Virus record (IMG/VR): IMGVR_UViG_3300010373_000033
Span: 1 to 33,684 of that record
DNA: 33,684 bases
Direction: 5' to 3' (one strand)
Source of the DNA: a virus
The notes under the pieces were generated by a model. The model saw only the letters and a program-made list of their open reading frames with translations. It was not told where the DNA came from and searched no databases. Positions 4,141 to 33,684 of the stretch are shown in pieces (the first letter of the stretch is position 1; the number at the start of each line of letters is the position of its first letter). A program made the translations under genes and the position numbers.

Positions 4141-4449
4141 TTGCCAAATTTGGATAACTTGGTGTTAGATTACACACAATTACAGGAAGCTGGTATAATT
4201 CTTGCAATGCTGGCAGCAATTACGACCGCAATAATCGCAGGCGTAAGACGTATTTACTGTAAAGGTAAGAATGATTCCATATTGAATGAGAGGATAACAC
4301 TTTTAGAGACATGGAAGGAAAATCATATCAAGGAATACCAGAAGTTGCAAGATACCAACGATGAAGTAAAAAAGGAATTATTCGAGGTAGGCAAGAAGAT
4401 TGAATATCTTATAGGACTCTATGAAGGAAACGGCACAAAAGAATCATAG
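4141..4449 (+). CDS. Membrane-anchored coiled-coil protein (holin/XhlA-like architecture)
   Basis: This 102-residue protein starts at TTG, two bases after the previous stop. Residues about 18-38 are one membrane segment (IILAMLAAITTAIIAGV), followed by basic residues and then a charged coiled coil (about 50-95). This single-helix-plus-coil layout resembles XhlA-type or holin accessory proteins of phages. It sits next to a three-helix membrane protein. A role in lysis, egress or membrane attachment is inferred only from architecture and position. Confidence 0.6.
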   Translation: MPNLDNLVLDYTQLQEAGIILAMLAAITTAIIAGVRRIYCKGKNDSILNERITLLETWKENHIKEYQKLQDTNDEVKKELFEVGKKIEYLIGLYEGNGTKES

Positions 4450-5172: not shown

Positions 5173-5186
5173 TTCTTTATTTTTTA
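5173..5186 (+). terminator. Oligo-T terminator candidate for the late unit
   Basis: A T-rich tract begins immediately after the stop of the gene ending at 5172 and runs into the convergent gene's stop codon. Archaeal transcription commonly ends at such tracts. No hairpin is seen. Confidence 0.4.
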
Positions 5187-6332
5187 TACAAAATTTGCAT
5201 GTTTGGGGCGTTCTATTCCCTGCTTCATAGCCTTGTTTCTATCCCTCATCCAGCATGGCGGACAAGTCTTGACGTCTAACTGCGTCATTTTGGAATGAGA
5301 TTTTTGGATTAATTCCTTCAAGGTATTTTCCCTGATATCACCAAGTTCAAAGCCTGGAATGTATTTTTGAATACAGCAAGGATAGATCTTACAGTCTGCA
5401 CCCAAAGCCCAGACGAATCTTTGCATGTAACAGGTATCAAAGTCATCATTTCCATGCGTATAGGATTCTAGTTTGTATAATGCCGGTGTGACTACATAAT
5501 CAGATCGTGAGTGACATTTGACTGCAATATTAAGCATGTCTTGGGCGTGTTTGAGATGCTCTGGTTCTATCTGCCCTATTCCTGTTCCCTCGATATACAT
5601 GAATGAAAACCTGATGTAGTCCACGCCAACCTCTGAAAATAATCTACTCGTATCCAAAATATCATCAAAATTCTGGTCGGTAATCACAAAATTTACACCT
5701 ATTGTAAGTCCCTCATCTTTTGGATTCGGTATCCGTTCGTATAATTTTCTTTTCTCTACAAGTTTCTTGATTGCTTCCAACCTTCTCTCAAAATCAAGGT
5801 TTCCAGTCCTGTGGATCTTTTTATGCGTTTCAGGATTGGAACTATCAATCGATATTCTAACCCACCTGAAATGTCTAGCCATTGTTTCAATTCTTTTTTC
5901 TGTCATCGTACTGCCGTTTGTAATCAAGCCAATTTCCAAGCCATATTTGACACAATTATCGACCATCTCATCATAGGCAGACCATAAAGTGGACTCACCC
6001 CCCCCAGTGAAAGTTATTGAAGGGATACCAGCTTCATAAAACTGCCTTGGTAATTCCTTGGCAAACTCTACGGGAAGGCTTGTGTTTTTTGATGGCTTAC
6101 CTATTGGCTTGAACTCGTCAATCATTGGCAACTTTTTCGGGTTAAGCAAAGGCAACATGTTCTTTGCGTTATGCGATTCTTCTGCACGGTAAGAACAAAA
6201 ACTGCAATTATCATTACAATAAAGTTCAAGATCTACCTGAATGTTAGTCGGTGCAATCGGTTTCCCTTCCTGTAAAAGTTTCAGCCTGTCAAGGTGATAA
6301 TTTGCCTTTGATAACGAGAATGGTGCTTCCAC
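5184..6332 (-). CDS. Radical SAM enzyme with SPASM-like C-terminus
   Basis: This 382-residue protein starts at GTG, whose G is the last base of the upstream TAG. It carries the radical SAM cluster motif CxxxCxxC at C39, C43 and C46, a SAM-binding FTGGGES motif near residue 110, and LITNGS and RISID strand motifs of the TIM barrel. Residues about 300-370 hold more cysteines (DTC, ADC, PCC, CPPC), as in SPASM/Twitch domains that bind extra Fe-S clusters. Such enzymes usually modify peptides or small molecules. The substrate is unknown and no obvious precursor peptide is adjacent. It ends a leftward unit with an adenine methyltransferase and a ParB-like gene. Confidence 0.88.
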   Translation of the reverse strand: MEAPFSLSKANYHLDRLKLLQEGKPIAPTNIQVDLELYCNDNCSFCSYRAEESHNAKNMLPLLNPKKLPMIDEFKPIGKPSKNTSLPVEFAKELPRQFYEAGIPSITFTGGGESTLWSAYDEMVDNCVKYGLEIGLITNGSTMTEKRIETMARHFRWVRISIDSSNPETHKKIHRTGNLDFERRLEAIKKLVEKRKLYERIPNPKDEGLTIGVNFVITDQNFDDILDTSRLFSEVGVDYIRFSFMYIEGTGIGQIEPEHLKHAQDMLNIAVKCHSRSDYVVTPALYKLESYTHGNDDFDTCYMQRFVWALGADCKIYPCCIQKYIPGFELGDIRENTLKELIQKSHSKMTQLDVKTCPPCWMRDRNKAMKQGIERPKHANFV

Positions 6333-7029: not shown

Positions 7030-7979
7030 TCTCCCCACTCGCATTGCGTACAGCATATCCTCTTATGAACGTGGCATAGTTTCCGCTTTCTGCAGACATT
7101 TCCGCATTTCTGGCATAGTTCTTTTGATACGTGCGGGTTGCTATGCGTGTTGAATTCCTTGTTTTTGTAGCGTCTTTTTATTATTTCATAGAAAAGTTTG
7201 TTTACATTTGTCTTTCCAAGTCTTAGATCTTCATTTTCCTTTTCAGTCCCATGCTTGCGGATATAGTTTATCCTTGATACAGTCCCAGCACCGACTCCGA
7301 TTATCTTTCCAACCTTGTAATCTGCCGAGTTCTCTATCTGTTCCTGTCTTGTCAAAGGTTTCCGTATCCCTAATCTTATCTCGGATAGAAACTTTTTCCT
7401 ATTCTCGTTATTTTCATTATGCAAGATATTTTTATAATCATCCATGAGGACGACCATTTCATAATTTGATAACTGCCTTCTTTTCAGGTTGGCAGTTATG
7501 ACGTACATTTTCTCTGCAATCTTGTCGTCAAAGTCCTTTACTACATATCTTACAGTTTTGTCTAACAACGTACAAATCTCATATCTTGTGTGTCCGTCTA
7601 GGATTTTGCCATCCTTTGCAAGTACAATCGGCTCATGCAAGCCCTCTTTTTCGATTGATTCCTTGAGGAAGGCATGCTGATTTTTGCCTAACCTTGGAAC
7701 TGCATGAAGATAGGCAATGTCGATATATGGCACAAGTTTCGGATCTTCCCCATTTCCCGCATACTCTACATTTGGAACCTTGATGTCATTTCGTAGTTTG
7801 GATTTATAGTTTGAATTTCTAGGCTTTTGGCGTAATCTGTATCCACAACATGGACAGTACAAGCCATCATATTGGATGAATATCTCACATACTTGGCAAC
7901 GCTTCTGTCCAATACCATATCTTGATTCACCTGTAATTTTAAATGCCTGAATATTCTTACAGGTACCCTTGCATGCCAT
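7026..7979 (-). CDS. ParB/Srx-like protein with N- and C-terminal zinc modules
   Basis: A 317-residue protein. Residues 1-63 are a Cys-rich module (C-x3-C, KRCQVC, CPCCG, KPRN) that also occurs as a stand-alone gene at 17981. Residues about 85-180 match the ParB N-terminal (sulfiredoxin-like) fold, with IVLAKDGKILDGHTRYE as the phosphate-binding motif. A helical region with an HTH-like segment (about 215-250) follows, then a second Cys cluster (CQKC, C, CHVH, CTQC) at the end. ParB-like viral proteins can partition DNA, act as nucleases or regulate. Probably DNA-binding. Confidence 0.8.
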   Translation of the reverse strand: MACKGTCKNIQAFKITGESRYGIGQKRCQVCEIFIQYDGLYCPCCGYRLRQKPRNSNYKSKLRNDIKVPNVEYAGNGEDPKLVPYIDIAYLHAVPRLGKNQHAFLKESIEKEGLHEPIVLAKDGKILDGHTRYEICTLLDKTVRYVVKDFDDKIAEKMYVITANLKRRQLSNYEMVVLMDDYKNILHNENNENRKKFLSEIRLGIRKPLTRQEQIENSADYKVGKIIGVGAGTVSRINYIRKHGTEKENEDLRLGKTNVNKLFYEIIKRRYKNKEFNTHSNPHVSKELCQKCGNVCRKRKLCHVHKRICCTQCEWGE

Positions 7980-7981
7980 AT

Positions 7982-8128
7982 CTAATGAAAAGTTTTTGGG
8001 TACACTTGCTTCTTGAGATATTCCTGTCTCTCTATGCTCTGGTCTTTGGCTTCCTCTGGTACTTCGAATTCATCCGAGTCGAATTCCTGTTCATCAAACT
8101 CGTCGGTTCTTTCGTCGTCAAAACCCAC
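7982..8128 (-). CDS. Acidic 48-residue microprotein
   Basis: GTG at 8128 shares its first base with the TAG of the upstream HTH gene (TAGTG), the same junction as at the radical SAM gene. It ends at TAG 7984-7982, two bases before the ParB-like ATG. The first half is strongly acidic (many Asp/Glu with Phe), while the end is basic. Such acidic tails can mimic DNA or bind a partner. Function unknown. Confidence 0.6.
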   Translation of the reverse strand: MGFDDERTDEFDEQEFDSDEFEVPEEAKDQSIERQEYLKKQVYPKTFH

Positions 8129-8337
8129 TAGCTAACCACTTCCTCGGTTTCTATCCATTTGAAAGCACCATCCTCGTATATGATATTATCATACCGTGCA
8201 ATCACAAACTTTCTGTAATTGTAGAAAGTTGAGGGGGATAAATCAAGTAGATTACAGAACTTTACTATATCTACTACTTTTTCTTTTTTGACCAATTGAT
8301 AGATCTTGTCTATCGCTTTTGACATGTTACGCTTCAT
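8128..8337 (-). CDS. Small winged/HTH DNA-binding protein
   Basis: A 69-residue protein, first gene of the leftward unit ending in the radical SAM gene. Residues about 22-45 read as a helix-turn-helix (VDIVKFCNLLDLSPSTFYNYRKFV), and the acidic aromatic C-terminus could form a wing. It probably regulates its own promoter in the AT-rich gap upstream, which holds inverted repeats. Confidence 0.65.
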   Translation of the reverse strand: MKRNMSKAIDKIYQLVKKEKVVDIVKFCNLLDLSPSTFYNYRKFVIARYDNIIYEDGAFKWIETEEVVS

Positions 8338-8360
8338 TACTCCACTCTACTTTACTTTCT

Positions 8361-8368
8361 ACTTAAAG
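8361..8368 (-). promoter_or_regulatory. TATA-like box for the leftward gene at 8337
   Basis: Read on the minus strand, a CTTTAAGT-type box is centred about 27 nt upstream of the ATG at 8337, matching leaderless archaeal spacing. Confidence 0.4.
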
Positions 8369-8467
8369 ATTTAGGATAAGTTTGTTTTAGTTTTTTATTT
8401 ATTTATTTTCTCTTTTAAAATTTTTTTATTATAGTGATTTGTAAAAAGTAGAGTAGAGTAAAATAAA

Positions 8468-8490
8468 AGTGAATGGTAAGTTCATTCACT
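8468..8490. repeat. Perfect 8-bp inverted repeat with 7-nt spacer
   Basis: AGTGAATG and CATTCACT flank a 7-base spacer. It lies just past the stop of the nuclease-like gene (minus strand) and upstream of the next leftward promoter. It may be a terminator hairpin or a dimeric operator. Confidence 0.5.
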
Positions 8491-8525
8491 AAATACAGAA
8501 AAATTCGAGCCGTGCCTGCAAACGT

Positions 8526-8972
8526 CTAGGAGTGTTCTGACTCACTAATCTGTCTTTTAGCGTATGTTTTAATTAAAAATTGCTTTAGGGTTTCCTTCCA
8601 TTTCTTGTCGGATTCCCATATCTTGCAGACACCAAACTTTGCCTTGGTGTAGGCCCAATCCCGTTTTAGATCGTGATTATTTCCCTCAAAATGTCCTTTT
8701 CTTCGCTTGCTTCCCTTGTTTGGCTTGGCTTCTTCCTCGTATTCGATTATGATCTTATTGTGAAAATCCAGTACATCAGGGCAGAACATTTCAAAGCCGA
8801 TCAATGGAAGTTTGCCGTTACCGATAAAGCATGTTCCAAGGTCTGAGATGTCTATCCTTGTCTCGTAATTTCCTTGGTCAAACTTGAACCGAAAACCTAG
8901 TCCAAATTCTTCACTGATTCGGTTAGCTTCTTGCCATACTGGATAGATACGATCAAAGTCTCGATGTCCCAA
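8526..8972 (-). CDS. PD-(D/E)XK-like endonuclease candidate
   Basis: A 148-residue protein starting at TTG 8972. A P-D pair at residues 65-66 is followed by the hydrophobic strand IIIEYEE (E77, E79), and then by NNHDLKRDWAYTKAKFGV and a KIWESD strand. This order resembles very-short-patch-repair and other PD-(D/E)XK nucleases (D ... E-x-E/K ... HxxKRD). The first positions are E-x-E, so the metal site is not canonical. It may resolve junctions, cut host DNA or act as a homing-type enzyme. Confidence 0.5.
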   Translation of the reverse strand: MGHRDFDRIYPVWQEANRISEEFGLGFRFKFDQGNYETRIDISDLGTCFIGNGKLPLIGFEMFCPDVLDFHNKIIIEYEEEAKPNKGSKRRKGHFEGNNHDLKRDWAYTKAKFGVCKIWESDKKWKETLKQFLIKTYAKRQISESEHS

Positions 8973-11416: not shown

Positions 11417-11533
11417 TCATTTAGGTACTCCGAATAATGTGATAGACATGGTTATCTTACATCTATTACAAAAGTAATCATCTTTTCCTTTGAAGAATGG
11501 AGTTAACTCTTTTCTACAAAGAGGGCAAAACAT
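11417..11533 (-). CDS. 38-residue zinc-ribbon microprotein
   Basis: ATG at 11533, or TTG at 11539 overlapping the previous TGA as TTGA and adding two residues. Two CxxC pairs (CPLC and CNRC, about 16 apart) form a full minimal zinc ribbon. Unknown role. Confidence 0.6.
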   Translation of the reverse strand: MFCPLCRKELTPFFKGKDDYFCNRCKITMSITLFGVPK

Positions 11534-11535
11534 AC

Positions 11536-11760
11536 TCAAGACGACTTCACCGCAATATCATCAGACTTTTTCATTCCTTGTCCACGAGCATATTTGATTC
11601 CACAATTAATGTAGTTGTGTTCATGAACTTGATCTGCTGGACACGAATTTACCGAACGATAATATCTATCATGTTTGGAATTATGAAGAAAAATGAATCT
11701 GAATGAACCTACATCATAGAATCGATTACAAGTCTTACAAAAATAATATCCATCACTCAT
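11536..11760 (-). CDS. Small Cys/His-rich protein
   Basis: 74 residues; ATG overlaps the Dam stop (ATGA). CKTC at residues 8-11, later single Cys residues and several His make a likely zinc site. The C-terminus is basic. Unknown. Confidence 0.6.
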   Translation of the reverse strand: MSDGYYFCKTCNRFYDVGSFRFIFLHNSKHDRYYRSVNSCPADQVHEHNYINCGIKYARGQGMKKSDDIAVKSS

Positions 11761-12602
11761 GTCTCTAAACCTTCCTTTTGAAATGTAATCGGGAAAGCCT
11801 CTAAAGGATTTTGCTTGATGACAATATCTGGACTTAGAATCAATATTTCTGAGGACTTCTTAGAATCATTACTAATTCCATACTTCCAAGTTAAATTCAT
11901 GATTCTAAATTGGCCATATCTTTCTCTAATGACCTCTGTATCATTGTATGATAAAATCCATCTCTCACGATTCTTGAGTAATTCATAGAGCATATTATGT
12001 TCAAACTCTTCCTTACTTCTCTTTGAATAGGCATAGAGTCTATCATGTTTAACATAAGGTGGATCTAGATATAGAAAGTCCTCCGAGTGTTTTGGTATTG
12101 AGGCTTTGAAATCTGAATAACCAATATGAAACCCACTTACCTTGAAGTTTCTAACTCTATCAATAATGGCCTTATTGAATCTCTGATAGATGTCTGTGTA
12201 TAATCCACCATTAACAGTAGAACCACCAAATGTAGTTCGATTTAAAATAAAAAACATAACTGCACGCATAATAGAGTCTTGTTCAATGAAGATCTTTTTA
12301 CTCCAAGTACGTAAAACATTCTTATCAATATTGAAGTGTTCTTGAATCTTGTCTGCTAATTGCTCTGGATTGTTTACTAGGTGATTCCAGAAATCTACTA
12401 AAGGTTCAAAGTTGTCATAACCATAAACTCTAATTCCTTTGGTTGCACATGATAACTCGAAAGAACCACCGCCTATGAATGGTGAACATATTGTCTTTAG
12501 ATTCTCAGGTAAGTATTGAGTTAATGATTTAATTGCTCTTGTCTTACCCCCTGCATATCTTAAGGGCGATATGGCATGTTGACATTGGTTATCTTTTGTC
12601 AA
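11757..12602 (-). CDS. dam: D12-class DNA adenine methyltransferase (Dam)
   Basis: A 281-residue protein of the D12 class N6-adenine family. It shows the N-terminal PLRYAGGK motif (about 13-20), the SAM-binding FIGGGSFE motif (about 42-49), a helical target-recognition region, and the catalytic DPPY (about 178-181). Start TTG at 12602 overlaps the upstream TGA (TTGA). It is the only large enzyme in the zinc-microprotein cluster and has no adjacent restriction enzyme. It likely modifies GATC-like sites to evade host nucleases or switch transcription; the site is not determinable here. Confidence 0.9.
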   Translation of the reverse strand: MTKDNQCQHAISPLRYAGGKTRAIKSLTQYLPENLKTICSPFIGGGSFELSCATKGIRVYGYDNFEPLVDFWNHLVNNPEQLADKIQEHFNIDKNVLRTWSKKIFIEQDSIMRAVMFFILNRTTFGGSTVNGGLYTDIYQRFNKAIIDRVRNFKVSGFHIGYSDFKASIPKHSEDFLYLDPPYVKHDRLYAYSKRSKEEFEHNMLYELLKNRERWILSYNDTEVIRERYGQFRIMNLTWKYGISNDSKKSSEILILSPDIVIKQNPLEAFPITFQKEGLET

Positions 12603-15294: not shown

Positions 15295-15302
15295 AATTTA
15301 AA
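15295..15302 (-). promoter_or_regulatory. TATA-like box for the leftward zinc cluster
   Basis: TTTAAATT on the minus strand is centred 26 nt upstream of the ATG at 15272. A second TTTAAA lies at 15287-15292. Fits a leaderless archaeal promoter. Confidence 0.5.
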
Positions 15303-15349
15303 TGTATTGATTCGGTAATTTGTGTTAATTTCCGTAAAGTAGATGACTC

Positions 15350-15357
15350 TAAATATC
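15350..15357 (+). promoter_or_regulatory. TATA-like box for the start of the late unit
   Basis: TAAATATC is about 31 nt upstream of the TTG at 15385. It is divergent from the box at 15295. Confidence 0.4.
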
Positions 15358-15384
15358 ACAATTCCCTCATGAAACACGGCTCTC

Positions 15385-16158
15385 TTGCAGGAATCAAGTC
15401 TAATCGATATCAACCAACTACTAAAAGAAGAAGTTTCTCAAGCAAACATGTTCATCAAACGGGCACGGGAAGTATTGGAACCTATCTATTTATCCGCAGC
15501 TAGAAAACTCGTATCCTCCGGTGTAGTGGAATCAGAACAAGACGCATGTGCAAGACTGACAAAGATATTCGGTCCCGACCACGAAAGAAATATCCAAAGA
15601 TGGCTACCTGAACAATACAAGAGATCTTACGTAAAAGACGAATCCAAGGAAGTCCCACGAAACATCCAAGAAGAATCCTTGAAACTTATGCGGGATGTAT
15701 TATCTGACATGCTCGAAGCAATATCCACCATTTACAGAAAGGTAAGAGAAGAACCGCAAGGGACAGAAAAATACAACGGACTGATTCAAATCCTTACAGA
15801 ACAATTCCGCAGTTTGTCGGATATGGAAAAATACGTCACCGAACTCAAAAACATGTCTGTCGAACTTGCATACATGAAAGAATTACAGGACGAGAGGCAA
15901 AAAATAGGTGCATATGAAAAGATGATGCTCAAAGTACAATTATTATTCTTTAACAAAGACCATGTTGCAAAAACTATACAATTTAGTTCAAAATGGATTA
16001 AGAACGGGGTAGAAAAAGACGAGGAATTACAAAAAGCACTAGATACAATACGCAAATGTCCTCAATGCTGTTTCGATATCGCCGACTGGTTCAACAAGGC
16101 AAAGATACGACATGATAAAGGATTGCCGATTCCTGAACCGCCAATCATAAAAAGTTAA
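15385..16158 (+). CDS. Helical protein upstream of terminase, candidate small terminase
   Basis: 257 residues from TTG 15385; a stop is in frame five codons upstream, so no earlier start exists. It is almost all helix, with a possible HTH at about residues 45-75 (SEQDACARLTKIFG), a coiled middle, and CPQCC near 230. It is the first gene of the late unit, one small gene before TerL, where TerS normally lies. The role is inferred from position. Confidence 0.5.
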   Translation: MQESSLIDINQLLKEEVSQANMFIKRAREVLEPIYLSAARKLVSSGVVESEQDACARLTKIFGPDHERNIQRWLPEQYKRSYVKDESKEVPRNIQEESLKLMRDVLSDMLEAISTIYRKVREEPQGTEKYNGLIQILTEQFRSLSDMEKYVTELKNMSVELAYMKELQDERQKIGAYEKMMLKVQLLFFNKDHVAKTIQFSSKWIKNGVEKDEELQKALDTIRKCPQCCFDIADWFNKAKIRHDKGLPIPEPPIIKS

Positions 16159-16189: not shown

Positions 16190-16429
16190 ATGGCTAAAAC
16201 TGCATGGCATGATCCAGATGTTCACGGCAGATTACTAAACGCATTAATCAAAAGGGCTAACAAGGAATTTTACAAGGCATTGGATGAAAAGAACGTCGAA
16301 CTTGCACAATCATGGCTAGACAGAATCATCAAATCCGAGCATGGTATACGTTCCTACATTGAGATAGTCACAGGTGTCAAAGAGCTAATCCGAGAAGGAA
16401 AGAAACTTGAAGCCGACATCACTAGATGA
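16190..16429 (+). CDS. Small helical protein before TerL
   Basis: 79 residues, all helix and mixed charge, overlapping the TerL start by 23 bases. It could be the small terminase or a packaging accessory. No motif recognised. Confidence 0.6.
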   Translation: MAKTAWHDPDVHGRLLNALIKRANKEFYKALDEKNVELAQSWLDRIIKSEHGIRSYIEIVTGVKELIREGKKLEADITR

Positions 16430-17780
16430 TCTGGAAGTCTTAAGGCAGAAAATCACTAGGGCAAAACAGGAAACAATACAAAAATCATTGCCATTCTGGT
16501 GCGGAGATTACCAAGGCTCGGAATTTTGCTGTTACAACCACCGGATAGGATTGCCAAAAAAAGACGGCACAGAGCATCCAATCTATGCTTACGAGGAAGA
16601 ATTATTCGAGGATATCGAGCAATACAACTATCTTGCAATCGTAAAGGCGACTGGTTTAGGAATCACAGAATTTTTCCTAAGATATGCAGAATGGAAGGCG
16701 TTATTCCACTACAAGAACGCACATATTGTAATCTTCACAGGCCCGAATCTCAACCTTGCAAAGATGCAGATACGAAGAATCCAAGACCATTTGAGAGGCA
16801 AATACAACTATTCGGGGACAGATTACAGGCTAGAAATCAATACAAACGTCATAGAGGCTTTCCCATCCATGAACATAGACGCTGCAAGATCCTTACCCAA
16901 TCCCAAATTCATTATGATAGACGAGGCAGCATTTTTCAAGATGGTAAATGACGAGGAAATACGGGCAATCGCTGAAAGGTACGAACTCAAATCCCAGTCC
17001 AAGGTCGTTATATATTCTACACCTGGATTGCCGTCTGGTATGTTTTATGATCTAATCAAAGAAGAACCTACCAAATATGCCAAAAGATATCTTGACTACC
17101 GAAGAGGATTACAACCACATAAATGCAATCTTGGATTAACTATCTATGATCCTACCAAACTGGATGAGGCAAAGAAATCACCAAGTTTTGAACGTGAATA
17201 CAACCTACAATGGGGTTACGGCACGGGTAACATCTTTCCATATCAATTACTAGACAAGTGTGTCGAGGAATACGACCTTGCACCACAATCAGACGACAGG
17301 GTATTATTCTATGATCCGGCATTTGGCAGTTCAATGTTTGGCATTTTAGGAATGGAAAAGCGTAGTGACGGGTTACTGTATATCTTGGATGCAGAGGAAT
17401 TTGAGAGGTCTAGTTTTCCCGCAATGCTGGAACGGTTAAAATTCCTTACAGAGTCCAAATATCATAGAGTCCTAGGGGATAACTCACGACCTGAGATAGT
17501 CAAGGAACTACAAGACAACGGAATAGATGCAACGGGTGTAATCTTCTCAAAGGAACTTACAGAGATGACCATCACATCAAGCCAAAAGGTAAAGGAATTA
17601 CAGGTTAGAATCCACCCGATATTCAAGGATCTGTTATTACAATTGCGTTCAGTGGAATACAACGACAAGGGACACCCCGACAAGAAGAAGATATCATTTG
17701 ACTTGGGAGATCCTTTCATGATGGGATGTAAGCACTTTGCGACTTCCTTTTATGGTGGCATACTGAGGGATAATTGGTAA
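16407..17780 (+). CDS. terL: Large terminase (DNA packaging ATPase/nuclease)
   Basis: 457 residues from TTG 16407. The ATPase domain has a degenerate Walker A (KATGLGITE), a Walker B with catalytic Glu (FIMIDEAAF), and a coupling motif (YSTPG). The nuclease domain has acidic strands LFYDPAF (Asp) and LGDNS (Asp) and a late FDLGDPF. It cuts and pumps viral DNA into the procapsid through the portal. The family is clear; the unusual P-loop with GLGIT in place of the usual GKS/T is noted. The next gene starts on its stop codon. Confidence 0.92.
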   Translation: MKPTSLDDLEVLRQKITRAKQETIQKSLPFWCGDYQGSEFCCYNHRIGLPKKDGTEHPIYAYEEELFEDIEQYNYLAIVKATGLGITEFFLRYAEWKALFHYKNAHIVIFTGPNLNLAKMQIRRIQDHLRGKYNYSGTDYRLEINTNVIEAFPSMNIDAARSLPNPKFIMIDEAAFFKMVNDEEIRAIAERYELKSQSKVVIYSTPGLPSGMFYDLIKEEPTKYAKRYLDYRRGLQPHKCNLGLTIYDPTKLDEAKKSPSFEREYNLQWGYGTGNIFPYQLLDKCVEEYDLAPQSDDRVLFYDPAFGSSMFGILGMEKRSDGLLYILDAEEFERSSFPAMLERLKFLTESKYHRVLGDNSRPEIVKELQDNGIDATGVIFSKELTEMTITSSQKVKELQVRIHPIFKDLLLQLRSVEYNDKGHPDKKKISFDLGDPFMMGCKHFATSFYGGILRDNW

Positions 17781-17980: not shown

Positions 17981-18196
17981 TTGGGCTGTAATGGCATATG
18001 TCCACGATACAAGGCTAAGAAGCCATTACAAGGATCATACTATACCTTTTCAAAGCGATGCCAAGAGTGTGGTATCTTTGTCTTATGGGAAGGCCTGAAA
18101 TGTCCATGCTGCGGGCAGAAACTACGCACAAAACCAAGAAACAATGAATACCGTGAAAAACTACGAAAAGAACAGGGGATAGACATCAGATGCTAG
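17981..18196 (+). CDS. Stand-alone thaumarchaeal-type zinc module
   Basis: 71 residues from TTG, directly after the previous stop. It carries C-x3-C, then KRCQEC, CPCCG and KPRN, the same module as residues 1-63 of the ParB-like protein at 7026. The Cys arrangement fits two zincs. Probably nucleic-acid-binding. Confidence 0.7.
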   Translation: MGCNGICPRYKAKKPLQGSYYTFSKRCQECGIFVLWEGLKCPCCGQKLRTKPRNNEYREKLRKEQGIDIRC

Positions 18197-18864
18197 CAGT
18201 AGGGTATAATTTCTATGAGAAATCCCTTGCTACCGTACAGCGTGGCATCGAATCTGTTAAATCCCATGTTGACTATATCTTTGCTATCGATGGCAGATAC
18301 ACGGATGAATACGGGGTACCATTATTTCCAGACTCTGAACCTCTATCTCATGAAATTGTACGCAACTATCTCCAAAACATCCCAAACGTTATTCTGGTTG
18401 ATCTTCCCGCTACTGAGATCCAAAAACGACAGCGATACCTTGACATGTGCAAACAATACGACTGTGAATATCTCATTATCCTCGACGGGGACGAATTCGT
18501 TTTACCTGAGTCCGACTGGCAATCATTCAAACATAACTTGGAACAATGTAAACCAGATACCAACATCTACGGGATAAAGTACGAGTATTCATATCCACAA
18601 CACCATGACGCTACAAACTATCCTAGATTATGGTTCAGACCGTGGGAGATGGAGTATTTTCATGCCCATTGCTTATTCAAGAATAAAATCACGGGCAGAG
18701 TGCAGAAATCAAGTTCAGGTGTACCATGTATCGAAGGCATCAGGATGGCAGGTGATGACACACTACGAAACAGGGAATACCAATTGCAGTCTTTTGAATA
18801 CCAGACTTGGCTTATCGAACACGAGCAAGAAATCAGGGAAGAATATCGAGAGAAAGAATATTAA
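18190..18864 (+). CDS. Glycosyltransferase-like (GT-A) protein I
   Basis: 224 residues, ATG overlapping the zinc-module gene's end. It begins with a strand-helix and has an IFAIDGRY stretch, then LIILDGDEF, the DxD motif used by GT-A transferases to hold the metal and sugar nucleotide. The C-terminal part holds several Tyr/His/Trp typical of the acceptor side. It is shorter than most GT2 enzymes. Donor and acceptor are unknown; two more such genes follow. Confidence 0.7.
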   Translation: MLAVGYNFYEKSLATVQRGIESVKSHVDYIFAIDGRYTDEYGVPLFPDSEPLSHEIVRNYLQNIPNVILVDLPATEIQKRQRYLDMCKQYDCEYLIILDGDEFVLPESDWQSFKHNLEQCKPDTNIYGIKYEYSYPQHHDATNYPRLWFRPWEMEYFHAHCLFKNKITGRVQKSSSGVPCIEGIRMAGDDTLRNREYQLQSFEYQTWLIEHEQEIREEYREKEY

Positions 18865-19697: not shown

Positions 19698-19891
19698 GTT
19701 TATCCAAACAGCATAAAATCAAACGAAAACTGGTATTGCTTCATATAGAAGATGGAACAATGGTCGAGTGTCAGAATCTTGCAGCACACCTAAAAACTCT
19801 ATACCCAAGTACCATATTCATGATTACCCACAAGAAGATGGATTCAATTTCAAGAGCTGAACTAAAACAGATGGTGAAGATGTTAGAATGA
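19694..19891 (+). CDS. 65-residue basic unknown
   Basis: Basic N-terminus (KQHKIKRKL), then alpha/beta. One Cys. Both ends in 4-base overlaps. Unknown. Confidence 0.55.
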   Translation: MSLSKQHKIKRKLVLLHIEDGTMVECQNLAAHLKTLYPSTIFMITHKKMDSISRAELKQMVKMLE

Positions 19892-20739
19892 TGTCAGCAA
19901 GCGAACACGATGATCTAGTGGAAAAATATCCACTATTCACACCCGAAGAAATAGCAGCAGCAAGAAAAATGTTTGACGATTCAAGCGACAGACAAATCAA
20001 GAAACAACCGCTAGTATCGGTAATAATCCCCGTCTATAACTGCCACAAATACGTCGCACTTGCAATAGAATCGGTACGCATGCAATCTTGGAAGTCATTG
20101 GAACTTATCATAGTAGACGATGGAAGCGATGACGGAACTACGGAATTATTGCAGAAAATCATAGATCCTAGAGTGCCAGAAGTACAGGTAATTTACCAAC
20201 TTCAAAACAAGGGTACGGCATCAGCACTAAACGAGGGAATCAAGCACGCACGAGGCGAATGGATAAGATGGCTTTCAGCAGACGACATGATGTATCCAAA
20301 CAGCGTACAAGATATGATGATATTTGGTGTAGAGGATAACGCCAAACAGTCCAAAAACGCTATATTTTACAGCGACTATGATATCATTGATGAACGTGGC
20401 AGTCTTATCGGCGACTTTATCGAGCCAGATCGCAACCTATCCGACCATGAAACAAAAACAAAGGAGTTATTCAATCATTTCTACGGCAACGGATCAACCA
20501 GCTTAATACACAAAAACGTATTCAAGAAATGCGGATTATTCGATGAATCGCTGAAACATTCCGAGGATTATGAGTTTTGGTTGAGGGCAACAGCATTGTT
20601 CAACGTTGAAATGATACGGGTACCGACGAAAACCATCAAGTACCGCAGATGGTCAGGCCAGATGACAAACAAAGTAGGCGGAAGTCTGGACGAACAGATT
20701 AAAAAGTCTATTAAAGATAAAATGAGTCAACTAGCCTGA
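19888..20739 (+). CDS. Family 2 glycosyltransferase
   Basis: 283 residues. Clear GT2 hallmarks: VSVIIPVYNC start of the Rossmann-like domain at about residue 45, LIIVDDGSDDGT, GEWIRWLSADDM with the DxD-type metal site, and EDYEFWLRA for the acceptor base region. It transfers a sugar from a nucleotide donor. The N-terminal 40 residues are helical. Its place in the late unit suggests glycosylation of virion or envelope proteins; no polymerase or flippase is nearby. ATG overlaps the upstream stop. Confidence 0.92.
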   Translation: MMSASEHDDLVEKYPLFTPEEIAAARKMFDDSSDRQIKKQPLVSVIIPVYNCHKYVALAIESVRMQSWKSLELIIVDDGSDDGTTELLQKIIDPRVPEVQVIYQLQNKGTASALNEGIKHARGEWIRWLSADDMMYPNSVQDMMIFGVEDNAKQSKNAIFYSDYDIIDERGSLIGDFIEPDRNLSDHETKTKELFNHFYGNGSTSLIHKNVFKKCGLFDESLKHSEDYEFWLRATALFNVEMIRVPTKTIKYRRWSGQMTNKVGGSLDEQIKKSIKDKMSQLA

Positions 20740-21237: not shown

Positions 21238-22038
21238 GTGACGGTCAATCTTTTATTAGCTGTTCCAAGCCCAAGGGATATCCCGCAGGTTTTAGACGAA
21301 CATCCTCTTTTACCATGCGATATCTTTGTGGTAAAATACAAACCAGAATGGCAGGCATACTATGATATCCGAGAGTTTTTTCTAGGACACAAGGAATACA
21401 CACATCTTGCCATTGCCTGCGATGATATTGTCGTAAAACCAAACCACATACGGAGATTGGTAAAAGATCTAGAACTGTTTGATTATGATATTCTATCGGG
21501 CATGATGAACATAGAACAGGACGATTTTGAATGGGTAAACATCACACCCACAAGCAATATACCAAATCCAAGACATGAAGAAAGACATTATCAATGGTAC
21601 AAAAAATCAGAGTTGGTCGGCAAGGGTATAATCGAGTGTGGTTTCTCTGGATTTCCTCTGATGGTACTACGCAGAAATGTAGTGTCAGAGATTCCCTTTG
21701 ATGCAGACGGTTCCGCCAATGGTACGGATAACACTTGCGGTGGTTCCTTGGATGTAATGTTCTGCAAGGCAGCACACGAGAAAGGCTACAATATAATGGT
21801 CGATACAGATGTTGTCCTATTGCACCTAAGACGGGAAGGCAAGTCCCTAGTAGGCGGTGCAGTTCCTGATTGGTATTTCAGACCAAAAGGCAGCCCAGAT
21901 GTCAGAAAGGATTTTGTCAGAAACAAGCAACTATTACGAAAAGAACTAGATGCATTTATAGCATCAGGTGGATTGCATCAGGAACAACCAAACAGATTAC
22001 TTATTGCCATGGCAAATATCTTTTTAGAGTCAAATTGA
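21238..22038 (+). CDS. Glycosyltransferase-like (GT-A) protein III
   Basis: 266 residues from GTG. IACDDIVVKP near residue 60 is a GT-A DxD-like motif, and CKAAHEKGYNIMVDTDVVLLH in the C-terminal half is the usual end of a GT2-like fold. GFSGFPLMVLRR lies between, as in acceptor loops. Third putative sugar transferase of the unit, probably for another linkage. Confidence 0.7.
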   Translation: MTVNLLLAVPSPRDIPQVLDEHPLLPCDIFVVKYKPEWQAYYDIREFFLGHKEYTHLAIACDDIVVKPNHIRRLVKDLELFDYDILSGMMNIEQDDFEWVNITPTSNIPNPRHEERHYQWYKKSELVGKGIIECGFSGFPLMVLRRNVVSEIPFDADGSANGTDNTCGGSLDVMFCKAAHEKGYNIMVDTDVVLLHLRREGKSLVGGAVPDWYFRPKGSPDVRKDFVRNKQLLRKELDAFIASGGLHQEQPNRLLIAMANIFLESN

Positions 22039-22498: not shown

Positions 22499-23983
22499 AT
22501 GGTAAAGCACTATGAACATATACCTACACCAAACGAGATCCGAACTTCTTACAATAAACAGGCTAACGGTGCAGTCCAGCAGTTTTATGGTTTCATCTCA
22601 CAAGAAGTAACAGGTGCCAAGGATAATTCAGGCAAGCCGTCAAGCCAAGTATCAGACTTTTATGTTCCGTATGTAGTTCCGCCTTTTGGTAGTTTTATCC
22701 AGTGTCAAGAATATTACAGGACAGTTGGAAAGGTCCAGAACGTTATAGATAGTATCGTTGCAAATATCATCAACCGTGAATGGTATTTTGAATCAGACAA
22801 GGATGCCTATGTCAACAAGATGGAAGACTGGGAAGAAAAATTCAATCTTTCAGATGTTATCGAACATATCGTAAGAGACTGGCTGATGTGTGGAAATTCC
22901 ATCATAGGATTTTCAGACTGGCAACCAATGCAGCTAAGCACTATCCTTGGAATGAAACGAGATATTTATGGTATTCCTGAATATTTTGTGCAGACTGTAA
23001 ACGGCAAAGTTGTCGATATACAAGCAAAACCATTCCTGTTTACAAAATTCATAGAAATCAATAGAGACGCATGGGGTATTCCATTATTTGGATCTTTAAT
23101 CGCATCAAACTATACCGATATCGACGGAAAACAACCTCTGCCAATGTTGCAGGTATATCGTCAAATGTTGCTAGATTCTGGAAGAATTTATCACAAGTAT
23201 GCAAGCCCGAGGGCAATATGGTCATTCCCAGGGGCAAACAAGGAAGTATTGGAAAAAGACATCAAGCCATTAATGGATGCAATGCGTCCAGGTGACAGAC
23301 TTGCATTAAACACACTTCCAACGTTAGTCACTGAGCAAGTCGAATTCAGAAACAGATTCGATGTTATTGTCAAAATGATAAACGACGAAACCGAAGCCGG
23401 ATTACAATCATCGACTAACAGACTAATCACCCAGCCCTCAGCAATGGCAGACGCAAAGGAAGCAGGGGCACAGGATGATGATAGGGTTCTAGGTATAATG
23501 GAAAAACTACGAAGGGTTATCAATAAGTTCATCATCCCACGAGTCATCGGTGAAGCTAACGTCTGCTTCTTCAAGTGGGGTGCCAAAGATACTATGGAAC
23601 TCGAATTCCCAGAGGGACTAATGAACGCACTAAACGTATCCCAGAACGGTCAACCGGTAATATCCATTGCAGAGGCTAGAATGATCTTATCGATAAAAGG
23701 CTGGAAACTAGATGATGGATTGTATCAACAAAACCTCAACCAACAGGTATTCCAGTTACAACAATTGGCAATGAAACAGATGCAGAACCAACAGAATCAG
23801 GCTAATCTGCCAGGCAAAGATCCAACACCACAAAAGACAGATGATGACATCAGCAAGGTCGATACAAAAGATTCATCCCAGACAAATACCATACCATTTC
23901 GGGATACTACACTAGCATTGCCCGCAGGTGATCCGGTAGTACCTGCACCAAACAAGACCAAGCCACAGCATACGGGTGCCTAG
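22499..23983 (+). CDS. Portal protein
   Basis: 494 residues. HK97/SPP1-type portal features: a helical N-terminus, a stem region, VEFRNRFDVIVKMINDE near the middle (channel helix), then AKEAGAQDDDRVLGIMEKLRRVINKFIIPRV, and a Gln/Pro-rich disordered tail. It forms the 12-mer ring for packaging and tail attachment. It sits after TerL and before the protease/capsid fusion, as expected. Confidence 0.88.
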   Translation: MVKHYEHIPTPNEIRTSYNKQANGAVQQFYGFISQEVTGAKDNSGKPSSQVSDFYVPYVVPPFGSFIQCQEYYRTVGKVQNVIDSIVANIINREWYFESDKDAYVNKMEDWEEKFNLSDVIEHIVRDWLMCGNSIIGFSDWQPMQLSTILGMKRDIYGIPEYFVQTVNGKVVDIQAKPFLFTKFIEINRDAWGIPLFGSLIASNYTDIDGKQPLPMLQVYRQMLLDSGRIYHKYASPRAIWSFPGANKEVLEKDIKPLMDAMRPGDRLALNTLPTLVTEQVEFRNRFDVIVKMINDETEAGLQSSTNRLITQPSAMADAKEAGAQDDDRVLGIMEKLRRVINKFIIPRVIGEANVCFFKWGAKDTMELEFPEGLMNALNVSQNGQPVISIAEARMILSIKGWKLDDGLYQQNLNQQVFQLQQLAMKQMQNQQNQANLPGKDPTPQKTDDDISKVDTKDSSQTNTIPFRDTTLALPAGDPVVPAPNKTKPQHTGA

Positions 23984-23992
23984 AAAGTTCTC

Positions 23993-24018
23993 TTTATTAA
24001 TAGAGACAAATTAGTTCC
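23993..24018 (+). promoter_or_regulatory. Late promoter of the capsid gene with ACAAATTAGTTCC
   Basis: TTTATTAA at 23993-24000 and ACAAATTAGTTCC at 24006-24018 lie directly before the ATG at 24019. This 13-mer is shared only with the portal gene. Confidence 0.55.
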
Positions 24019-26538
24019 ATGAGTTCAGATTTTAAACTAATCAAAGAGAATCTAGACGGTTCAAAGACATGGAAGATTAAAGCAATTTCAGTCACTACAA
24101 CAGGAAACAATCGAAAATATAACAAGGAAGAAATGACGCTGGGTGCAAGAAGCCTATCATTTAGACCGTTAAACCGTAATCATGCTAGACCATTCTTGCC
24201 ATTCCCAGAGAACCAAACGGGAGTAATGGACTTTGATCCTGTAAAAATGGCAGTAACTGGGGAAATGAGAATCAAAGATCCTCACATAAACCAACTAATC
24301 AAGGAAGGCAAGATAAACAAGCTATCCATCGAGCAATTACCATCTAAAGGCGAGGATTGTAGCCTTGCAACTGGCGTATGCGAACAAAAAGGGGTAATTT
24401 TCACAGGATTGGCACTTTTGGATTCCAATGTCCCCCCAGGAGATCCCACCACTGAAATCAAGGTGGAAATGAAGGATATTCCTATCTTAGAATGTGTGAC
24501 GGATTGCTGCAAGACCGAGATGAAAGGCGAACCGTTTGCCGGATATGATGATTTTGATGCCTGTACTGCTGACGGAAACAGTGACGAATTATGCGGATAT
24601 CTCCAAGCACAATCAGAAAAGTTTGAAACTGCCCCATGGCCCAAAATAGAAAAGAAATCTGACAAACTTACCATGGATGATATCGAACAGACATACGATT
24701 CCATGAACGATTCACAAAAAGCCCACATCATAGATCCAAATGATTTCTACAAGAATACCAAGAAATTCGTAACAAAATCATTCAAGGATCTAAACGACAA
24801 GCAGAAACAGGCACTAATCAAGACATACGGATTCCGACATAGATATAATGATGTAAAACATCTGTTACCAGATTCAGAAGGTCCAACATCACAGCAACCA
24901 TTGTTTGATGATGACTTGCTTGGTCAGGAAATGGATATCAAGAAAGCAACTGATGATTTAATCAAAAAGGGAATAAAAGATCCCAGAGCTCAATCAATGG
25001 CAAATCAAGATCCTGAAAATAACACAGAAAATAATTCTTCTATACCACAATCACAAGACAATGGTATAATGTCCACAATAGCAATCAAAAGCAAAAAATA
25101 TACAAAAGAGCAAATCGACGCCCTTGCAACAAAAATGATTTCAAAGAAAGAAATCAACTCAATGGTATCTGCATTTGTAGGACAGCAAAATTACAAGGCA
25201 CCAATGTCTGACGCACTATCGTCAGTATTGTATAACGCTTCTGACGATGAACTAGACCAATATGCAAGAATCACACAAGACCAAGATCCAAGCGTAATCC
25301 CACAAGGCGGATTACCAGACTACAAGGCATTTACACAAGAAATGATGAAAGGCTTGTCTGAAATCCTTGCAAAGAATACTGAGGAATTGGTAACAAAACT
25401 CATTCCAAAAACAGAGTCCAAAGTCGAACCATCAAGTATAGTCGATGATTCTACCAAGATCAAGACTGAAATGGTCAAGACAATGTATGAATATTATGAC
25501 ATCAAAGGACACAAGGAACTCAACAACCTCAAAGAATTCACTTATACTTTAGACAAAAATGAATACCTCACCAAGTATGGTGCTACCCAGCCAAGCGGTG
25601 CAGGTTCAGTCATTCCAAACCAAAAGGGAACAAAGGAAGAAACAGTAACCGTAACAGCCGGTGACATGGGACAGACCTTTGCAAAACAGGTCATGCTCTT
25701 GCCAGGTGGAAGAATGAGAGTTCCAGTTAGACAATACTGCAACTTTTCAGAGATTCCAAACGGTGCAGACAGAGCCAATTGGTATACCATAGGATCATTT
25801 GTATTCACAACAATCACAGAAGGCACAGAACCAACCAACGTAGCCCAAACAGTAGTCAAGGTACAAGCATTGCCAACTATACGAGGTGCAGTTCAAAGAG
25901 TCGGATACTCACAAGTAGAGAACGCACCATTTGGTCTAGTTGATGCAATCAACAACGCAATGGTACTCGCAGGCTTACATGATGAAGCCTTAGACTTGCT
26001 TGGAAGTGGTGGCTCATACTGGGGAACACCATCAAACGTAACCAACTGGGTAAACGGAAACTCTGGTGCAAACATCACTAGCCAGAACGACGACATTGCT
26101 TCAATGACTCTCACAAGAACCGGACTGATTGCAGCCAAGAGATTGATTGCAGCAGGCGGTTATGATACAAGTCCAGGCAACCTCGTACTATTCTTGCATC
26201 CAAAGGCATACCAAGACTTGATGACTGATACAAACCTGAACACCTACTACCAATATGCCAGACCAGACATCACAGCAACCTACGTTCTAGAACAACTCTA
26301 CGGTGTAGATATAGTGCCGACAACCTCAGTTGCATCAGCAACAAACACCACAAACGCAACATACAGAAACACACTAGCCGTGAAAGGATGGGCTCTAGGA
26401 ATCGCAGCAGCAAGAGAGATTACAATCGAAGTACAACGAAGAAACGAAGTCCAGCAACTTATCATTTCTGGAACCCATAGAGTAAAATCAGCAGTAATCG
26501 ACTACGCTGCATCCTGTGGAATATCTAGTGCACAATAG
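24019..26538 (+). CDS. Fused prohead protease - scaffold - HK97 major capsid protein
   Basis: 839 residues in one frame. Residues 1-150 look like a prohead maturation protease, with RPLNRNH (H55) and KLSIEQ (S103) as candidate catalytic His and Ser. Residues about 150-540 are charged, helical and low in complexity, like a scaffold/delta domain. Residues about 541-839 match an HK97-fold capsid: a PVRQYCNFSEIP stretch, a TTITEG E-loop region, an NAPFGLVDAINNAMVLAGLHDEALDLLG helix region, and a PTTSV/IEVQRR C-terminal part. The protease probably cuts itself and the scaffold away after assembly. Confidence 0.85.
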   Translation: MSSDFKLIKENLDGSKTWKIKAISVTTTGNNRKYNKEEMTLGARSLSFRPLNRNHARPFLPFPENQTGVMDFDPVKMAVTGEMRIKDPHINQLIKEGKINKLSIEQLPSKGEDCSLATGVCEQKGVIFTGLALLDSNVPPGDPTTEIKVEMKDIPILECVTDCCKTEMKGEPFAGYDDFDACTADGNSDELCGYLQAQSEKFETAPWPKIEKKSDKLTMDDIEQTYDSMNDSQKAHIIDPNDFYKNTKKFVTKSFKDLNDKQKQALIKTYGFRHRYNDVKHLLPDSEGPTSQQPLFDDDLLGQEMDIKKATDDLIKKGIKDPRAQSMANQDPENNTENNSSIPQSQDNGIMSTIAIKSKKYTKEQIDALATKMISKKEINSMVSAFVGQQNYKAPMSDALSSVLYNASDDELDQYARITQDQDPSVIPQGGLPDYKAFTQEMMKGLSEILAKNTEELVTKLIPKTESKVEPSSIVDDSTKIKTEMVKTMYEYYDIKGHKELNNLKEFTYTLDKNEYLTKYGATQPSGAGSVIPNQKGTKEETVTVTAGDMGQTFAKQVMLLPGGRMRVPVRQYCNFSEIPNGADRANWYTIGSFVFTTITEGTEPTNVAQTVVKVQALPTIRGAVQRVGYSQVENAPFGLVDAINNAMVLAGLHDEALDLLGSGGSYWGTPSNVTNWVNGNSGANITSQNDDIASMTLTRTGLIAAKRLIAAGGYDTSPGNLVLFLHPKAYQDLMTDTNLNTYYQYARPDITATYVLEQLYGVDIVPTTSVASATNTTNATYRNTLAVKGWALGIAAAREITIEVQRRNEVQQLIISGTHRVKSAVIDYAASCGISSAQ

Positions 26539-26548
26539 GTGTATCTAG

Positions 26549-26701
26549 GTGTCTAAACTTTCTGAAACTTACAAGGGATGGAAAGAATCTGGCATGTCAG
26601 GCCGTGGCAATACTGACGCTATCATACACGCCATAGTCGAAGAATTATTGAAAAACGATAAAGTCGAAGCAGTAACAGAAGAAAAACCAAAGAAAAAGTA
26701 A
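26549..26701 (+). CDS. 50-residue Lys-rich microprotein after the capsid gene
   Basis: GTG at 26549 to TAA 26701. Helical with a Lys/Glu-rich tail ending KPKKK. An AGGTGTATCTAGGTG stretch upstream may bind ribosomes. Possibly a capsid accessory; unknown. Confidence 0.5.
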   Translation: MSKLSETYKGWKESGMSGRGNTDAIIHAIVEELLKNDKVEAVTEEKPKKK

Positions 26702-26733
26702 CTTCTCTTATCTTTTAATGGAATTATACCATC

Positions 26734-27438: not shown

Positions 27439-28968
27439 ATGGTCTTAACAAAATACACTGGCATACAAACCCTGACAGGTTCCGAAGCCGAGATATTCAA
27501 CGTAAACAAAGGTGCATCAACAATTCACTTTGGTGGAACCGTATATCTTGACGAATTAGTTTCAGGCGATACGGTACGGGTACGAGTTTATGATAAAAAG
27601 GATGGCGTTGGATACTGGAAGTTTGACGGTGAAGTAAATGATTATGTCGGAAGTAATAACGGAACTATCACTTACAATACAAACCTCAAGGCATTATACA
27701 AATTTGAACAAAACATAAACGATTCTACAACAGGGGCAAATAATCTAACCCTAGCCGCCGGTACCACATCTTATGTATCAGGACAAGAAGGGAGTGCCAT
27801 ATCACTTAACGGTTCTACATATTATACTGCTAGTAGTTCGGCTGTTATAACTGGAACCGCTGATAGAACTGTATCATTTTGGATGTATATTACATCATTT
27901 GTAGCAAATCAAGGTCCATTTGGTTGGGGGGTGGGTAGTAATAATAACGCCTTTGGGATGTATTTTCCAAATACTAACGGGGTAGCTTATTGTTTTGGAT
28001 ATGCAAATGATGTTCAATTCAATACAACGTTTTCATTAAACACTTGGTATCACATAGCAATAGTAGTATCATCTACGGGGACTGTTAGAACATTATATGT
28101 AAATGGAGTACAGGACAAACAATCTACAACAACAGCATTGAATACTTCATCATCTAGTTTATTCGTAGGTCAGGATTTTCTAAGCAGTGTAGATTTTAAT
28201 GGTTATTTGGACGAGTTCAGAGTTTATTCTTCTGCTTTGTCTGCCTCTCAAGCCTCTGCTCTATACATGGTAGGAAAATATGGTCAGTCGCATACTTTTG
28301 ATGGTGGAGAATACATTTCAGTTGGAAACCCTACTGCCTTACAATTTGAAAGGACAAACTCATTTACATTTGCATACTGGGCAAAATACACATCAAATAC
28401 CAAAGAAAAAATCATCACCAAGAATAACGGAGACGCCACCAAAGGCTATGAGATGGGATTCAATGCCTCTGGATTTCCAATCCTACGATTAATCAATACA
28501 TCCTCTACAAACGAAATCAATGTGGTAGGATCGGCAAGCTATGATGACGGAAACTATCATCATTTTGTATGGACTTATTCGGGTACGAGCCTTGCAAGCG
28601 GGGTAATACTATATGTTGACAATGCCGCCGTTACTTTGACTACAACTACCAACAATCTGAGTGCGACTATCGCCAATTCAAACAATGTAATATTCGGGGC
28701 TGACACGGGAGGAACAAACCCGTTAATAGCACAGATTGACGACCTTAGAATCTATAACCGTGTCCTGTCATCTTCCGAAGTATCCGACCTATACAACAAC
28801 CCGCAAAATCTAAACTCAATAGTCTACGACAAGTCATATTCTGGTCCTTTATCCAGCAAGACGCTTTACATCCCAATCATACAGACAAACAACTATTCAG
28901 TGACATTGCAGCAGTCAGCGGGTAATTACTATAAAACTTTAGATTGGTCAAGAATTGAGATCACGTAA
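27439..28968 (+). CDS. Virion surface protein with nested LamG/ConA-like domains
   Basis: 509 residues. A LamG start (GYWKFDGEVNDYVGSNNGTI, about residues 52-72) is interrupted by a full second LamG domain (about 81-277: LYKFEQNINDSTTG ... SLNG ... TVSFWMYI ... WYHIAIV ... LDEFRVYS). The first domain then resumes at GKYGQSHTFDGGEYISV, and continues through FAYWAK, YHHFVWTY and DDLRIYNR to about 455. LamG folds bind carbohydrates or proteins, so this is a strong candidate for host binding or head decoration. GGTGAT-like TGATAT lies before the ATG. Confidence 0.8.
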   Translation: MVLTKYTGIQTLTGSEAEIFNVNKGASTIHFGGTVYLDELVSGDTVRVRVYDKKDGVGYWKFDGEVNDYVGSNNGTITYNTNLKALYKFEQNINDSTTGANNLTLAAGTTSYVSGQEGSAISLNGSTYYTASSSAVITGTADRTVSFWMYITSFVANQGPFGWGVGSNNNAFGMYFPNTNGVAYCFGYANDVQFNTTFSLNTWYHIAIVVSSTGTVRTLYVNGVQDKQSTTTALNTSSSSLFVGQDFLSSVDFNGYLDEFRVYSSALSASQASALYMVGKYGQSHTFDGGEYISVGNPTALQFERTNSFTFAYWAKYTSNTKEKIITKNNGDATKGYEMGFNASGFPILRLINTSSTNEINVVGSASYDDGNYHHFVWTYSGTSLASGVILYVDNAAVTLTTTTNNLSATIANSNNVIFGADTGGTNPLIAQIDDLRIYNRVLSSSEVSDLYNNPQNLNSIVYDKSYSGPLSSKTLYIPIIQTNNYSVTLQQSAGNYYKTLDWSRIEIT

Positions 28969-33478: not shown

Positions 33479-33684
33479 GTGCAGGAACAACAGAAGCAGA
33501 TGTAAAGATCATCCTATCCGCAGATGATCAAGCTAGCGGACCGATTGATTCGGCAACAAACCAGATCAATGATTCCTACAAGACTCTGACAAACAATGCA
33601 CGAGCAGCAGGTAGGGAATGGATTAACAATAATTTTAGTTTATATGAATTAGGTAGAACTATGCACTCGGTTCATACCATAACC
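33475..33684 (+). CDS. Tail tape measure-like protein, N-terminal part
   Basis: ATG at 33475 overlaps the frameshift-form stop (ATGA). The frame continues through the end of the window into base 1 by the 123-base overlap (phase checked: 29 codons precede the repeat). See the C-terminal part at 1-786. Confidence 0.8.
   Translation, partial: MSAGTTEADVKIILSADDQASGPIDSATNQINDSYKTLTNNARAAGREWINNNFSLYELGRTMHSVHTIT
33562..33684. repeat. Terminal direct repeat (copy of 1-123)
   Basis: Identical to bases 1-123; marks the circular joint. Confidence 0.97.

Follow-up and report, generated by a model that had tools for sequence, protein, structure and literature searches.

Does a virus whose capsid maturation protease is fused to its major capsid protein (MCP) place a protease on every subunit of its shell? 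The question is raised by a single long open reading frame (ORF) in a viral IMG/VR record; all 33,684 bp of it were analyzed here and are referred to as the window. A first-pass annotation of this ORF described a protease, a scaffold and a capsid protein in one chain with no alternative start pattern, and proposed that each subunit of the shell would come with a protease of its own. A direct repeat of 123 bp, identical in both copies, bounds the window (positions 1–123 and 33562–33684), and the genome is therefore probably complete, either circular or terminally redundant. The sole annotated phage record that it matches is Nvie-Pro1 (FR725450), a provirus of Nitrososphaera viennensis, so the host is probably an ammonia-oxidizing archaeon. 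Elsewhere in the window, a glycosyltransferase family 2 gene (19888–20739, E 6e-30) and a weak second glycosyltransferase match (18190–18864) lie amid the structural genes. A protein encoded shortly 3′ of the capsid gene (27439–28968) contains two Laminin_G/ConA-like lectin stretches and is possibly a fiber or decoration protein. A Radical SAM/SPASM protein (5184–6332) and a D12-class DNA adenine methyltransferase (11757–12602) are encoded on the minus strand.

The fused ORF opens with ATG and runs through 839 codons with zero internal stops, as initially read (Table 1). A sequencing error masking a stop between the parts is unlikely because the same fusion is found in the GenBank record of Nvie-Pro1 and in two further, distinct metagenomic lineages. 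The arrangement had been described earlier, and the protease-MCP fusion itself is already known in print. Gene 8 of Nvie-Pro1 (FR725450) carries the annotation 'protease/major capsid protein', and fusion of a protease to the MCP in Nvie-Pro1 and NCAV2-Pro1 is described in a survey from 2019 (PMC6563490). The window belongs with the Nvie-Pro1 type of fusion, having a homologous MCP 3′ of the protease and the portal gene upstream, as in gene 8. The products differ in length (576 aa in Nvie-Pro1 versus 839 aa in the window) and in their protease domains, which are too divergent for BLAST. The likeness to NCAV2-Pro1, a Nitrosocaldus provirus with a prohead protease fused to the MCP, is by description only, in the same survey (PMC6563490).

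Table 1 Features of the window that bear on the fused capsid-maturation ORF
Feature	Coordinates	Strand	Basis or remark
Large terminase subunit (TerL)	16407..17780	+	42% identity with Nvie-Pro1 TerL
Portal protein, upstream neighbor of the fused ORF	22499..23983	+	47% identity with Nvie-Pro1 portal
Promoter-like box GAAAGTTCTCTTTATT	23983..23998	+	TTCT 31 nt before ATG 24019; PWM score 14.5 (11.6 without own record)
Fused ORF, protease-linker-scaffold-major capsid protein, 839 aa	24019..26538	+	MCP part (residues 430–839) 56% identical to Nvie-Pro1 gene 8
Predicted assemblin-type capsid maturation protease domain, residues 1–145	24019..24453	+	AlphaFold model, VIA, homology to stand-alone proteases encoded close to MCP genes
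H55 codon, candidate catalytic His	24181..24183	+	Invariant in 18 sequences
S103 codon, candidate catalytic Ser	24325..24327	+	Invariant in 18 sequences
Variable linker, residues 146–350, far longer than that of Nvie-Pro1	24454..25068	+	
Internal promoter-like box AATAATTCTTCTATAC	25030..25045	+	TTCT 34 nt before ATG 25069; PWM score 6.25 (6.48 without own record)
Scaffold (delta-domain-like) region, residues 351–534	25069..25620	+	Helices in low-confidence model; alignment position
Proposed nested gene, protease-free scaffold and capsid, 489 aa	25069..26538	+	In frame, stop shared with the fused ORF
Probable scaffold cut region, residues ~525–541	25591..25641	+	Inference from HK97 alignment
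HK97-fold capsid core, residues 564–839	25708..26535	+	VIA, Foldseek, T5 pb8 profile match
Next promoter-like box GTAACTTCTCTTATCT	26698..26713	+	31 nt before ATG 26734

The N-terminal 145 residues are predicted to form an assemblin-type (clan SH) capsid protease. In an alignment of 18 protease sequences (A5), H55 and S103, the residues proposed in the first-pass annotation as a His/Ser pair, are correctly placed and invariant, as are two cysteines, C114 and C121; no other His, Asp or Glu that might serve as a third catalytic residue is invariant in this alignment. The AlphaFold model of residues 1–165 (pLDDT 73) has a capsid-protease fold by its best VIA match, the T4 gp21 protease (5jbl; Z 8.9, 128 residues aligned), followed by herpesvirus proteases (Z 6.7, 6.3 and 6.2) and then by unrelated MCE-domain proteins (up to 6.1). 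Because the MCE-domain matches score close behind, the assemblin-type assignment draws on the top VIA matches together with sequence and context. Plain Foldseek gave no significant match with the same model, which only VIA matched. The PHROGs category 'head maturation protease' was matched by five relatives, and neither Pfam nor NCBIfam gave a family name for the fused ORF. In Nvie-Pro1, the protease domain (L002:6929–7435) has 37% identity with the free-standing protease of the relative L024 (E 7e-28), and none of the trypsin-type Pfam models matched it. This homology and the missing trypsin-type match suggest that the Nvie-Pro1 protease belongs with the assemblin-type capsid proteases rather than with the chymotrypsin-like enzymes, the label that it bears in the literature (PMC6563490).

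The middle region of the chain is charged, as the first reading had it, and poorly ordered in the model of residues 351–839, whose overall pLDDT is low (49.6). Residues 564–839 matched many HK97-fold capsids in VIA (Z 12–15 over 211–266 residues), and the capsid model and sequence gave an HK97-fold match in Foldseek (E about 1e-11) and a profile match to T5 pb8 (E 3e-6). These comparisons identify the predicted structure of residues ~564–839 as an HK97-fold capsid protein, placed at the C-terminus as expected, and the folds and homologues together support the view of protease, scaffold-like linker and capsid domain in one chain. The alignment with the HK97 chain starts at its residue ~128, opposite window residue 564, and mature HK97 begins at residue 104; judged from this position, the scaffold is probably cut near residues 525–541, which agrees with the cut near residue 530–545 anticipated in the initial reading. 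Phage HK97 shares with the window the HK97 fold and, as predicted here, a scaffold region at the N-terminus that a His/Ser protease cuts off, but its protease (gp4) and its delta domain plus MCP (gp5) are two separate genes. The Pfam model for the S78 peptidases (Peptidase_S78, PF04586) had no match in the window in six frames up to E 10, and none in the Pfam scans.

Relatives were recovered from IMG/VR with TerL and portal profiles, which yielded 34 loci, and an MCP profile added one lineage. Single-sequence IMG/VR searches with the whole fused ORF or its MCP part returned no matches, nor did a search with a two-sequence MCP alignment, although the TerL and portal alignments did match; no additional fused relative emerged when IMG/VR was scanned with the window-type protease. 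Fused ORFs are present in the window, Nvie-Pro1 (L002), L004 and L035/L036 (one ORF in two records), whereas protease and MCP are separate genes in at least ten relatives (L003, L007, L013, L014, L015, L017, L022, L023, L027, L032, L033, L034 and L037). The fused and separate states thus vary within one virus group. In L003, the protease-MCP pair is flanked by two homologues of the window ORF 21238–22038 (at 11529–12326 and 15302–15967). A single clade of the four fused proteases was rejected (p-AU 0.0003), and this non-monophyly would fit more than one fusion or an exchange of modules at the boundary. A formal conflict between the protease and MCP trees was considered and dropped, the protease grouping not being rejected by the MCP tree. 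Pairwise identities in the two domains run opposite ways: Nvie-Pro1 and L036 share 67% in the protease and 37% in the MCP, whereas Nvie-Pro1 and the window share 56–69% in the MCP and have proteases whose similarity is undetectable by BLAST (best E 0.18).

A TTCTCTT element is shared upstream of MCP start codons in this group, including those of several separate MCP genes. With up to two mismatches, TARTTCTCTTA was found before 74 of the 787 plus-strand genes in all records, with a peak 31–35 nt before the start codon, against 6–9 genes at shifted control offsets; TARTTCTCTT is a real element. At all loci, a box at this distance precedes many late-gene start codons. In Nvie-Pro1, TTCTCTT occurs nine times on the plus strand (0.5 expected), each time 31–35 nt before a start. 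The TAG or TAA of the Nvie-Pro1 box is often also the stop codon of the preceding gene (L002:4397, 8802, 11327 and 13209, boxes that abut stops ending at 4396, 8801, 11326 and 13208). A spacing of 31–35 nt fits the position of an archaeal TATA box on a leaderless or near-leaderless mRNA, and we infer that the box is a promoter with TATA-box-like spacing and that such mRNAs are made here. No TFB (TFIIB)-like factor that might read the box was found in 11 records, comprising the window and relatives.

Within the fused ORF of the window, a weaker form of the box (TAATTCTTCTATA, TAATTCTTCTA), with TTCTTCT in place of the consensus TTCTCTT, precedes the in-frame ATG 25069 (M351) by exactly 34 nt. 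This ATG is the top scorer among the 24 interior ATGs of the ORF and coincides in the alignment with the points at which relatives start their separate MCP genes, and the 489-aa frame that it opens is similar in length to those genes (mostly open frames of 482–498 aa). An equivalent ATG is present at the protease/scaffold boundary in all four fused lineages. In Nvie-Pro1, the box TAGTTCTCTTA at 7405 lies inside the fused ORF at the same 34-nt spacing from ATG 7439, which opens the scaffold-capsid part; the TAG of this box is not read as a stop in the fused-ORF frame. The box directly follows a CxxC motif, and separate proteases end near a similar CxxC. The L036 box, TAATTCTCTTA, lies 37 nt before the in-frame boundary ATG 11980, and L004 has a weaker form, TACTTCTCAAA, which is followed by an in-frame ATG at a distance of exactly 34 nt. 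A nested start in Nvie-Pro1 gene 8 is not mentioned in the available portion of the 2019 survey (PMC6563490).

Visual inspection, before any statistics, first singled out the internal ATGs. When the matrix was built without a record's own sites, the best interior ATG was the boundary one in all four fused ORFs. Among 1876 control ATGs, drawn partly from related records, none scored at or above the boundary ATG of Nvie-Pro1 or L036, and one did so for each of L004 and the window. Synonymous recoding with the protein fixed gave P values of 0.0004 (Nvie-Pro1), 0.0001 (L036), 0.017 (L004) and 0.015 (window). Genome-wide, the score of the window's internal box is not rare, about 60 sites on the two strands of the window scoring at least 5, and it exceeds the scores of the presumably working MCP promoters of some relatives (−4.7 to 3.0). 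The sequence evidence for an internal start is strong for two relatives and moderate for the window, and the case for a nested start lies in the four lineages taken together. The earlier statement that the ORF has no alternative start pattern is probably wrong. A fifth related capsid gene, that of L037, accompanies a separate protease and has a box variant, TTCTTCTA, 40 nt 5′ of the matching ATG, with a poor score. The L037 MCP ORF (7152–8885) has 160 open codons ahead of its probable initiator Met, and TAGTTCTTCTA boxes precede both the ORF and this Met.

We consider it fairly likely that this fused capsid-maturation gene, from a tailed virus related to Nvie-Pro1, acts as a pair of overlapping genes in the same frame. 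The box before position 24019 would give the full protease-scaffold-capsid chain, and the second box with ATG 25069 would give a scaffold-capsid protein lacking the protease and ending at the same stop. The short form would be the common one and would build most of the shell, and the long form would be carried into it through its own capsid domain, which would bring the protease inside without placing one on each subunit. Once the shell has assembled, the protease would release itself and cut off the scaffold near residues 525–541. The frame, the folds, the homologues and the box with its position were observed; from these we propose the promoter role of the box, the two products, their ratio and the cuts. 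The internal start and box sit at the point expected for the beginning of a separate capsid gene, so the majority of capsid subunits probably lack a protease from the outset; the proposal that every subunit brings its own assumes a single product, whereas the four fused lineages share the internal start and its box.

Such a nested gene has a counterpart in herpesviruses, in which UL26 and UL26.5 are in-frame genes with a common 3′ end and the shorter one encodes the protease-free part (PMC4498786). The window resembles UL26/UL26.5 and the HCMV UL80 family in that a long ORF begins with a protease domain, here one of predicted assemblin fold, and UL26/UL26.5 in an in-frame internal start that parts the protease from the downstream region, recognized here on sequence grounds. 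The nested herpesvirus product is scaffold only, with the MCP encoded by a separate gene, whereas the nested product of the window would include the MCP domain; the window gene would therefore work like UL26.5 yet not be a member of that family. In phage lambda, the protease gene C likewise contains an in-frame nested scaffold gene, Nu3, but gpC belongs to an unrelated protease type and the MCP has a gene of its own.

Three other accounts of the boundary were weighed. The ORF may yield only the 839-residue chain, with a protease on every subunit that is freed by self-cleavage. Consistent with this, the strongest box near the ORF precedes 24019, the frame is uninterrupted and the internal box of the window is imperfect. 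We nevertheless regard a single product as unlikely, as the boundary ATG and box recur at 34–37 nt in all four fused lineages, the box is near-perfect in Nvie-Pro1 and L036, and hundreds of arms of ~350 residues, each a protease plus linker, would probably fit tightly into a procapsid. Somewhat less credible still is an internal box that persists as an unused remnant of the separate promoter that preceded fusion. The full match of the Nvie-Pro1 box despite the divergence of the surrounding linker, and the recoding P values for Nvie-Pro1 (0.0004) and L036 (0.0001), argue against a remnant, even though the window and L004 have weaker boxes than Nvie-Pro1 and L036, and fused and separate states coexist in the group.

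The conserved boundary might also be a cut site of the protease itself, for instance near GIM-S, rather than a start codon: GGTAT(A/C)ATGTC is common to the window and Nvie-Pro1 in an otherwise dissimilar linker, and GIM-S is present in both. The corresponding stretches of L004 (NDKMAEE) and L036 (NNTMSAT), however, have the Met in common and different flanks, and a cut site leaves the upstream DNA box and its near-fixed spacing unexplained, which makes this account highly improbable.

For the tailed viruses of ammonia-oxidizing archaea as a group, we see a slightly better than even chance that the ORF of an assemblin-type protease holds a promoter-driven, in-frame scaffold-capsid gene, the protease being a minor, covalently carried capsid subunit. 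If so, this organization, with its shared protease fold, parallels the overlap of protease and scaffold in herpesviruses and would carry the UL26/UL26.5 logic over to the capsid protein. How the virus avoids a protease on every capsid subunit would be explained by a nested promoter and start, and the idea is testable in Nvie-Pro1, which is carried by a cultured host, Nitrososphaera viennensis. The poorly studied virus group gains a putative promoter motif, and the overlap of a stop codon with a promoter would show how neighboring genes can fuse yet keep separate expression.
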